Positions 18,084-43,326 of a stretch of DNA of 64,000 bases are shown one piece after another. Numbering within the stretch: the first letter of the stretch is position 1; every line of letters begins with the position of its first letter. The stretch covers positions 2,303,654 to 2,367,653 of the forward strand of contig NZ_CP007201.1 of assembly GCF_000568815.1 (NCBI RefSeq). The letters run 5' to 3'. The notes beneath the pieces are model-generated. The model made no database searches, was not told where the DNA came from, and was given only the letters and a program-made list of their open reading frames with translations. The position numbers were made by a program, and so were the translations under genes. Origin of the DNA: Sulfurospirillum multivorans DSM 12446 (lineage in GTDB: Bacteria; Campylobacterota; Campylobacteria; Campylobacterales; Sulfurospirillaceae).

Positions 18084-18100
18084 GAAGCGCTTGAATATAT

Positions 18101-18181
18101 AGAGTTCTTACAGAACTCTTGACACGTCTTTAAAGCAAAGCTCTAAAGACTACGTTAACACTGCGTTTTCTTCGGCAGAAA
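18101..18181 (+). repeat. Structured intergenic element, copy 1
   Basis: Three consecutive hairpins. A: AGAGTTCT-TAC-AGAACTCT (18101-18119). B: GTCTTTA-a-AGC-AAA-GCT-c-TAAAGAC (18126-18150). Then TACG and C, a weaker stem ending GGCAGAAA. Copy 2 at 34112 has the identical hairpin A and a hairpin B of the same shape with different paired bases. Not a classic terminator; could be a REP/MITE-like element or part of a transcript. Confidence 0.7.
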
Positions 18182-18205
18182 GCTCACGCACCTTTGGCGC
18201 TTTTT

Positions 18206-18233
18206 CTTCTTGCAAAATGAGTTTTGCAAGAAG
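18206..18233. other. 12-bp perfect inverted repeat upstream of pgpA
   Basis: CTTCTTGCAAAA / TTTTGCAAGAAG with loop TGAG, just upstream of an extended -10 (TGCTACAAT near 18240). Lacks a T-run after the stem on either strand, so an operator-like or element-border role is as likely as termination. Confidence 0.5.
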
Positions 18234-18278
18234 TCTTATGCTACAATTCAACCACTAAACTACACACATAGGATCGTT

Positions 18279-34111: not shown

Positions 34112-34211
34112 AGAGTTCTTACAGAACTCTTTTATCACGGTTTTTAGGCAAAGCCCAAAAACCTACGCTACGCCGCTGTGGCACTAAAGCTTGCCTCTAA
34201 CGAGGCAGAAA
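34112..34211 (+). repeat. Structured intergenic element, copy 2
   Basis: Hairpin A AGAGTTCT-TAC-AGAACTCT (34112-34130) is identical to copy 1. Hairpin B is GGTTTTT-a-GGC-AAA-GCC-c-AAAAACC (34139-34163): same stem lengths, bulges and AAA loop as copy 1, with changed base pairs. TACG follows, then GCCTC-TAAC-GAGGC and CAGAAA. It lies between the cupin and mscS genes, both on the minus strand. Confidence 0.7.
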
Positions 34212-41396: not shown

Positions 41397-41520
41397 TCTG
41401 ATTCAACTTTCTTCTCAAAATATACATGTAAAGGCAAACGCACAGGCTCTCAGTCCCACTCAGTCCCACACCTGTTTTTTCATTATCAGAAGAGGCTGTA
41501 CCTTTTGTTTCAATATCAAT

Positions 41521-41527
41521 TGATTTA
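41521..41527. repeat. Left target-site duplication
   Basis: TGATTTA, repeated directly at 42460-42466 on the far side of the IS. 7 bp fits the IS982 family. Confidence 0.85.
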
Positions 41528-42459
41528 ACCCAAACTGCTAGTTAAACAGAAGAGCTTTTTTGTCATCACTAAGCTTCAAAAAGCAGTTGATAGCATACGC
41601 AGTGATGAAAAGTCTAAGCTTTGTTAAAAAGCCACCAATGGTTGTAGCCTTAATCACTTTACCAAACTTAGCAGTGATCATAGAAAAGGCAGTTTCAACA
41701 CCTTTTCTAATTCTACGCTTGGTAAAATACTCTTCTTTGTTTTCTTGTTGCATGTTGTTACGCCCAATGGGTGAAAGTACAATCTCAAACTGTTTTAAAA
41801 AAGCTTCTAACTTTGATGAAACATACCCTTTATCTCCAATCGTGATTGATTTTTGGGGTAGATAGTGCATAAATTGATACCCCGCCGTAACATCGTGTAT
41901 GGAGCCTTCTGAGATATGTACCATTACAGGCTCTTTATCGGCTGTGACTACCATATGGACTTTAAGCCCATAAAAGAATCTTCCTTTGGATGCATTATAC
42001 CCCTTCAAAGATGGATCACTCCACAATCTGACTCTGCTTTGCCTTGTGATTTGGCACAATTCAACAGGAAAAGAATCAACAGAGTAAATCTTTGCACCGT
42101 TTAATCGCTGAAACAATGAGCCTAAAAACAAAAAAAGTGTGGACAACACGTCATTTATTTTTACTAAGCGGCGCAAAAATCTCGTGTAGTCAATCTCTTT
42201 CACCAAGTGCATCATCTTAACATACTGATGTGCTTTGAAATAGTTGCCATTAAAATCATTCACTGCCATATACCCGATAAGCAGCACTTCTGCATTACTA
42301 ATCTTAGCTCTAACATCATCTTTTATCCCTGATACCTTCAAATACTCATCAATTAAACAATAAACGGCTATAATATCTCGATCCATAATCTCGCCTCCCA
42401 CGGCTTTCTATGGAGTTTAAAGCAACTTTCAAACCATCTTCTCAACTAGCAGTTTGGGT
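41528..42459 (-). mobile_element. IS982-family insertion sequence, complete
   Basis: 932 bp bounded by perfect 16-bp inverted repeats ACCCAAACTGCTAGTT (41528-41543) and its complement (42444-42459), with a 7-bp target duplication TGATTTA. One transposase ORF fills it. Intact repeats, duplication and reading frame suggest a recent insertion. Confidence 0.92.
41538..42386 (-). CDS. IS982-family transposase
   Basis: 282-residue DDE transposase from ATG 42386 (GGGAGG upstream; GTG 42401 is an alternative). Segments KIYSVDSFPVELC, ITIGDKGYVSSKLE and RRIRKGVETAFSMI carry the D, D and E residues in IS982 spacing. Full length with no frameshift. The stop codon lies inside the left inverted repeat. 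Confidence 0.9.
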   Translation of the reverse strand: MDRDIIAVYCLIDEYLKVSGIKDDVRAKISNAEVLLIGYMAVNDFNGNYFKAHQYVKMMHLVKEIDYTRFLRRLVKINDVLSTLFLFLGSLFQRLNGAKIYSVDSFPVELCQITRQSRVRLWSDPSLKGYNASKGRFFYGLKVHMVVTADKEPVMVHISEGSIHDVTAGYQFMHYLPQKSITIGDKGYVSSKLEAFLKQFEIVLSPIGRNNMQQENKEEYFTKRRIRKGVETAFSMITAKFGKVIKATTIGGFLTKLRLFITAYAINCFLKLSDDKKALLFN

Positions 42460-43326
42460 TGATTTAAGATAAAAAGAGACTTTTAACGCATCGTAAAAGA
42501 GGTCAAGTGCCAGTTTTTCACCAATCATATAGTCTAATTTATCAAGATTATACCCCTCATCAATCGCTTCATCAATGATGTAATAGGTATTAAATTTATT
42601 GTAAAAAACACCAAGAGACAACGCCCAATTGAAACTTTTTGTGGGTTCATAATTGAGCAATGAACTCTCATGCGCCCCTATAAAATTTCCAGTGGTGATA
42701 AAACTGCGCATAGGAATACTGCTCAGCCTCAAAGAGGTGCCTACTAACGTTCCCGTGTAAAAATTTCCCAGATCGGCTTTGATATGTGTCGTAAGATCTA
42801 GGCTTAAATCTTGAATCGAAATAGGATCTGTTTTATAACCAATATTATACGAAGCTCCATAGGTAAATTCATCATCCAACTGGTTATCCCAGCCCTCTGG
42901 TTTATCAAATCCAAACACCGAATGAAAGCTTTTTTGTAAGGTGTCGGCTTGTGCAAAGGGACCAACCATGCCGATATTCACACCCACTTCATGAAAGAAA
43001 TTTGCAGATGATTTGTAAGCCAACATGTTTAAGGCGACATAACCAGCATAAGGAGAATCATTTAGATCTCTTGTACGGATGTCTTTGTTTTCAGGTGTAA
43101 AAATCGCATGTGAGATCGAAAAAGCGACATTTTTGTGTTCTAAATCAATAAAAGGCAACAGATCAGGAAACGTCGTATCATGTTCACTCATCCAAGTAAA
43201 ATACATCCCATTAGTATAATGATGGTCTTGCCCAACCATAGCATCATTTTCCAAAACAAGCGACGCGGTGTCCGCATAGACCCAAGAAGTAATTAAAAAT
43301 AAAAAACTTTTTTTTACTAAACCCAT
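42442..43326 (-). pseudogene. LpxR-like lipid A 3'-O-deacylase, 3' end removed by IS
   Basis: 294 codons from ATG 43326 (signal peptide to about SWVYA). The LpxR hallmark LENDAMVGQDHHYTNGMYFTW has the catalytic-region Asn/Asp and YTNG. The last native codons are FYLKS; the IS982 element then supplies TQTAS and a stop. The detached 3' part lies beyond the IS (41400-41527): after joining at the duplication the frame continues with SIDIETKG. The protein may lack the final barrel strands, so function is doubtful. TTG 43344 is a less likely start. Confidence 0.8.

Follow-up and report, generated by a model that had tools for sequence, protein, structure and literature searches.

A probable composite intergenic repeat of Sulfurospirillum multivorans: a GTAG REP-like core with hypervariable paired stems inside an IS5-type MITE

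The genome of Sulfurospirillum multivorans DSM 12446 carries a dispersed repeat that we interpret, with a probability of roughly 0.8, as a composite: on the outside a 136-bp MITE mobilised by the IS5 family, on the inside an older, order-wide GTAG REP-like core whose single-stranded fold is maintained. The window, a stretch of 64,000 nt from contig NZ_CP007201.1, contains the two copies dissected below, numbered from its first base. The genome G006 is the closest relative; G008 is a further genome compared.

18098–18100, no strand: copy 1, left target-site duplication (TAT); a single TAT in the G006 empty site, but one at each end of the element in this genome and in G008
18101–18236, − strand: copy 1, complete type I element (MITE) of 136 bp, placed on the strand of the constrained GTAG fold (an earlier note on this DNA had described the + strand)
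18102–18118, no strand: hairpin A, within the left terminal inverted repeat, GAGTTCTTACAGAACTC; its wobble pairs have no strand preference
18126–18150, − strand: REP-like hairpin B, 11 pairs and a 3-nt loop; assigned by covariation, by A·C versus G·T asymmetry and by a G·U pair on the − strand in place of an a/c mismatch
18150–18153, − strand: GTAG tag (CTAC on the + strand) at the base of hairpin B; assigned by tag counts in this genome and in other genera
18162–18186, no strand: hairpin C, loop TCGGC; its arms change in pairs in genus and order, with one T·G pair conserved
18188–18200, + strand: hairpin D and a T run, predicted to be terminator-like; GCACCTTTGGCGC then TTTTT, consensus GCACCTTTGGTGCTTTT
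18206–18236, no strand: right terminal hairpin (CTTCTTGCAAAATGAGTTTTGCAAGAAG at 18206–18233) and right terminal inverted repeat, overlooked in the earlier note
18237–18239, no strand: copy 1, right target-site duplication (TAT), on the same basis as the left one (G006 empty, G008 filled)
34112–34210, − strand: copy 2, type II element with the left end present and the right terminal hairpin lost; it belongs to the second subfamily of about 20 copies
34139–34163, − strand: hairpin B of copy 2, with its GTAG tag at 34163–34166
34192–34207, no strand: second hairpin of type II, TGCCTC-TAAC-GAGGCA; its arms vary yet pair among copies

Copy 1 hence consists, in this order, of the left terminal hairpin, hairpin B, hairpin C, hairpin D with its T run and the right terminal hairpin, and 136 bp is the most frequent length among the intact copies (n = 72). 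The earlier note had let copy 1 end at 18181; its real end at 18236 adds hairpin D and the right terminal hairpin, with a TAT on each side. That hairpin A is identical in both copies was confirmed (GAGTTCTTACAGAACTC at 18102–18118 and 34113–34129), and hairpin B was found in both as described, with the 7-bp stems, an a/c mismatch, a 3-bp inner stem and an AAA loop. What had been called an a/c bulge is indeed a mismatch on the strand then read but no bulge on the opposite strand, where it forms a G·U wobble. The third stem ending in GGCAGAAA that both copies were thought to share could not be upheld, the stems being different and the copies belonging to different subfamilies: in copy 1 these letters are the loop and 3′ arm of the hairpin at 18162–18186, whereas in copy 2 they come after the GCCTC/GAGGC hairpin at 34192–34207. 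Type II elements are laid out as hairpin B, a CACTRTGGCRCTAAAGCTT-like stretch and the GCCTC/GAGGC hairpin, the arms of which differ among copies (e.g. GCCTC/GAGGC, GCCC/GGGC and GACTC/GAGTC). At the place of copy 2 the element is absent from the related loci in G006, G008 and others.

The description as a two-copy element had to be abandoned. A covariance model of hairpin B (R1) recovered about 63 convincing copies in the source genome, and a 142-bp consensus is present in 24/24 Sulfurospirillum genomes. Used as a query, this consensus returned about 40 genome copies, all of one subfamily, and a second query about 20 copies of the other. Chance was excluded, as the window holds 5 matches against 0.17 expected from shuffles and the 3.18-Mb genome 23 near-matches to the 17-nt hairpin A against 1 for a reversed-pattern control. 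Exact core matches in named records come mainly from Sulfurospirillum (S. diekertiae, S. cavolei, strain SCADC and several metagenome-assembled genomes). Further copies in related genomes, which the earlier note had proposed to seek with a covariance model, are present throughout the genus and in other genera of the order, where R1 matched in 39 of 188 sampled genomes; these are a minority of the order's genomes, and copy numbers in the distant genomes are lower bounds. Searches for the element on plasmids gave no blastn match, and one exact pattern had no match in viral contigs. The copies are distributed 39 to 26 over the two replication strands, which is not significant (hand count, origin assumed at base 1).

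The outer layer is best seen at the pgpA locus, with copy 1 between the PilZ gene and pgpA. There G006, whose PgpA is 98% identical, has the empty site GAATCTATGCTAC, while in the source genome and G008 the locus is filled and reads TAT, 136 bp, TATGCTAC. Across the genus the 3-bp flanks are identical in 48/72 two-ended copies (shuffled mean 22.6, maximum 35 in 2000 shuffles) and the 4-bp flanks in 0/72; the duplications are mostly ATT or AAT. A genus-wide search for DDE transposases, followed by a test of the flanks, led to the partner IS, a resident 916-bp IS that occurs in the same genome and in the genus and whose TIR, AGACATCTTGCAAAACTC, is identical to the MITE consensus TIR at 17/18 bases. 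The 916-bp IS and a 907-bp relative have identical 3-bp flanks in 17/18 copies read (AAT, ATT or AGT); in the source genome five copies of the 916-bp-type transposase scored and four were read. The two overlapping frames of this IS are matched by profiles of the IS5 family; both have NF033581 as their best match, at a score that stays below the whole-protein cut-off because the frames are split, whereas PF13359 and PF01609 exceed their cut-offs; PF13613 was also matched. Since its TIR is one base away from that of the IS, the 3-bp duplications are shared and an empty site exists, the outer layer is, as judged from its sequence, an IS5-type MITE. We infer that the transposase of the 916-bp IS mobilises it in trans: an IS5-family DDE transposase would move the 136-bp unit by its TIRs of about 18 bp and leave 3-bp target duplications. 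Target duplication of the IS630 type (TA) was ruled out by the 3-bp duplication. A second, different IS lies at 41520–42467 of the window, with a DDE_Tnp_1 transposase (G000:2345239-2345745) between inverted repeats TTGATTTAACCCAAACTGCTAGTTAAAC and several copies in the genome.

These observations also bear on the idea that the repeats form a REP/BIME family only, with a RAYT-type HUH transposase as its mobiliser and with the terminal repeats as ordinary REP partners. The GTAG tag (CTAC on the + strand) is present in 59/64 copies of the source genome and in 75/80 copies from other genera, tandem arrays with 70–110-nt spacing occur in distant genomes and paired stem changes have already been reported in REPs (PMC3733652, PMC3116915), all of which would fit. 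We nevertheless consider this idea very improbable, as the TIR identity with a resident IS, the 3-bp duplications and the empty site require DDE-type insertion for the type I copies and the resident Y1 transposase has no flanking element copies.

The core is not bound to the IS5-type ends. Some copies in the source genome lack the terminal hairpins, and two of them keep the left end at the orthologous loci of genome G001 (L069, L067); the copies without terminal hairpins are therefore decayed MITEs in which the core is still recognisable. Beyond the genus, 80 core copies read from 22 distant genomes have the same architecture as the Sulfurospirillum core. One layout of the distant copies is YACG, variable stem, GCAAAGC, complementary stem and CTACGCTAACGCTGRG, followed at a distance by TCRGC and GCYCACGCGC; other distant copies follow the layout of the second subfamily, and the cores stand singly or in tandem at about 70–110-nt spacing. 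Terminal repeats around these distant cores were at background level save for a hint in genomes G179 and G209, and most have no IS5-type ends. By comparison of these sequences the core, consisting of hairpin B and the second hairpin, is older than its IS5 packaging and order-wide. In Sulfurospirillum such a GTAG-tagged REP-like core would have become packaged between IS5-type ends.

Near-identical cores were seen at three loci of G179 (L471, L472, L473) and one of G209 (L481), some of them between inverted repeats CATYAAGTTAA, possibly the end of another transposon. A rather speculative extension would have the core as a structured element, RNA or ssDNA, that is strand-specific, occurs order-wide, has private self-complementary stems and was captured repeatedly by different transposon ends, perhaps IS5-type ends in Sulfurospirillum and CATYAAGTTAA in G179/G209, which belong to another family. 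If this were true, the core would be a portable module that aids its carriers to persist or spread beside genes.

The evidence for a maintained fold comes from hairpin B. Among 33 copies of the source genome, 70 cells were changed on both sides of the stem and 2 on one side. In the distant set, 59 distinct copies collected by a structure-aware model and hence biased towards paired ones, 97.1% of cells are paired on the strand opposite to the one first read, with 183 double changes against a shuffled mean of 56 and a covariation score of 0.83 against at most 0.23 when slid. The covariation that the earlier note had seen between two copies is thus real and reaches far beyond them; the selection it was taken to imply is only partly established, given palindrome correction. 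Mismatches on the strand first read are strongly skewed, with 68 A·C against 1 G·T in the distant copies and 151 against 42 in the genus; therefore G·U dominates on the opposite strand, which is where the constrained fold lies. The direction of wobble is less exposed to structure-aware sampling than pairing is, while the priors of covariance models (Infernal) favour G·U on the modelled strand, and the wobble counts, taken over related and hence non-independent copies, carry no p-value. The terminal hairpins of the same elements are not consistently skewed (A·C to G·T 53:49 and 99:128). Hairpin C, one or two T·G-rich positions set aside, tends in the direction of hairpin B, with ratios of 22:6 in distant copies, 8:1 in the source genome and 18:2 in G006/G001. 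In the second hairpins a single position holds a conserved T·G, which there indicates the other strand and counts against our reading.

The asymmetry of 68:1 speaks for the importance of the fold that one strand adopts by itself. Correction of the palindromes as DNA probably adds to the paired changes but leaves the strand asymmetry unexplained. From these sequence patterns we infer that the core may be recognised in single-stranded, folded form, be it as ssDNA by an HUH enzyme of RAYT-like type or as RNA. The fold of the GTAG strand would be kept while the bases of the stem turn over in pairs, through an HUH-type enzyme reading shape in ssDNA, as proposed for REPs, or through a transcript acting as RNA.

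Orthologous loci of the source genome, G006 and G001 were compared to follow this turnover. At L079 the stem is CACCAA/TTGGTG in the source genome, CCCCAA/TTGGGG in G006 and CTTTTC/GGAAAG in G001, and at L042 hairpin B differs wholly from that of G006 despite flanks of 93–98% identity. L060 is type II in the source genome and type I in G006 (G006_L301); L063 is type II in the source genome, and its G006 counterpart (G006_L321) has a type I copy followed by an apparent remnant of a type II tail. These switches reflect either replacement or repeated insertion at one intergenic place. Loops are inverted at L215 and L065. Hence, together with the differences at L079, L042, L060 and L063, point mutation is not the only source of stem turnover, to which local replacement or palindrome correction also contributes. 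Within a single genome REP stems usually vary less than those of this element, a point against our reading. The source genome's own copies at L220 and L221 are visibly decayed beside intact orthologues, so that not all copies are maintained. Mini-inserts of 17 to about 31 nt (AAAACGAAGTTTCTGTGA or longer, e.g. the hairpin AAAACAAGGGCTTTAGCCCGATGTTTCTCTGA) were observed at CT|AAAG sites within element hairpins at L043, L046, L050, L056, L211, L212 and L219 of the source genome and at L394 of G001; they are missing from several orthologous copies.

The loop inversions at L215 and L065, the local replacement of hairpin B at L042 and the rarity of one-sided changes in the source genome would all be expected if the element were a plain IS5-type MITE, its internal hairpins being passengers and their paired changes arising by palindrome correction (replication template switching) rather than by selection. 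We regard this as improbable: other families of the order have the core, with conserved unpaired motifs, but no IS5 ends around it, and template switching alone fails to explain an A·C to G·T ratio that is extreme in hairpin B and absent from the terminal hairpins.

A transcribed cis-acting RNA on the GTAG strand, i.e. a leader, 3′-end or processing element that has spread to many genes, is an unlikely alternative to the composite repeat, although G·U is tolerated on one strand and many copies lie right against the ribosome-binding site of a gene read in the same sense. For instance, rpmJ is immediately preceded by the core in three genomes that belong to one other family (L405, L412, L463), with a tandem duplicate in L412; this may be a leader that has been conserved or a single insertion passed on by descent. 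The gene context is however two-sided: in three sets the hairpin-B side lies by a start in 19, 25 and 41 cases and by a stop in 28, 24 and 53. Moreover, decayed copies stand beside intact orthologues (L220, L221) and there is no Rfam match. At the gathering threshold the Rfam covariance models found only a tRNA in the window, and the element copies scored nothing above chance, which bears on the RNA processing site or new structured RNA that the earlier note had also considered. A universal 5′ leader, suggested by the first copies, was rejected, since the start and stop counts gave no consistent side.

The suggestion of a mobile REP/MITE-like element in the earlier note was apt in both halves, with the IS5-type MITE outside and the GTAG REP-like core inside. 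GTAG REPs, including those of epsilonproteobacteria, the paired changes in their stems and IS-derived MITEs are already known. No description of this element family was found in the literature searched, which was of limited scope. New is a hypervariable-stem REP-type core, conserved order-wide with a second hairpin, inside an IS5-type MITE, by which two classes of small bacterial repeats that are usually treated apart become linked. Moreover, in a palindromic repeat the structurally constrained strand can be told from sequence only by its wobble asymmetry, the terminal hairpins serving as negative control inside the element itself, and stems that are hypervariable but paired throughout an order make it directly testable whether REP recognition follows sequence or shape.

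Another repeat was observed in the same window. The palindrome TTACATGTAA occurs at 35 sites between 3401 and 61982 (e.g. 3401, 8896, 19876, 24048, 34713, 47681 and 59204) against 0.13 expected from base composition, and TTTACATGTAAA 19 times against 0.011. It is also present in loci of other Sulfurospirillum genomes and resembles a highly iterated palindrome such as the cyanobacterial HIP1; no paper describing it in this genus was found in the literature searched.

Among known systems, GTAG REPs are the closest to the core. They have been described from every division of the proteobacteria recognised at the time, the epsilon division (Sulfurovum NBC37-1) among them (Di Nocera et al. 2013, PMC3733652). 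Shared with them are the GTAG at the foot of a 6–9-bp stem, loop ends of the GGC/GCC type, alternative complementary stem residues, G·T pairs, intergenic sites and tandem groups (PMC3733652); the element has a 25-nt hairpin in the roughly 63 copies, many of them intergenic, with the GTAG foot opposite to the strand first read. Unlike GTAG REPs, its core is tied to a second conserved hairpin and has stems that are hypervariable even among the copies of a single genome; the Sulfurospirillum core is moreover enclosed by IS5-type terminal repeats. A RAYT gene flanked by the element was not found in the source genome, which has one Y1 transposase with other flanking repeats. As RAYT loci flanked by REPs are missing in some REP-bearing species as well (PMC3733652), we therefore file the core as REP-like and not as a proven REP. 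The Y1/REP-type tyrosine transposase, the only one found in the genome (252 aa; L024 1462–2220, G000:C1, about 378510–379268), stands between inverted repeats GGGGTCAGGGCTAAA, which is a TIRYT arrangement, and the terminal repeats GGGGTCAG match the TIRYT motif GGGGWSAS (PMC3733652). This transposase was considered as a mobiliser and rejected, the flanking GGGGTCAG repeats being unrelated to the element.

MITEs of IS families, e.g. NEMIS, RUP and ERIC (PMC3733652), are likewise short, non-coding, intergenic and strongly folding, with TIRs that match a resident IS and with target duplications. Unlike in these, the interior of the element as seen here is a REP-like core that is independent in other families and not a deletion product of an IS. 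REPINs (Bertels and Rainey 2011, PMC3116915) share the composite of hairpin repeats and the compensatory changes, but are made of two inverted REPs, whereas the second hairpin of the element is no inverted copy of the first and has a different sequence and no visible GTAG tag. Finally, REPs within palindromes have been described in Anabaena variabilis and Halothiobacillus neapolitanus (PMC3733652), and with these the element has in common that the units are embedded in a longer palindromic sequence; the outer palindrome in those two species has no assigned transposase, whereas the outer repeat of the element matches a resident IS of the IS5 family.
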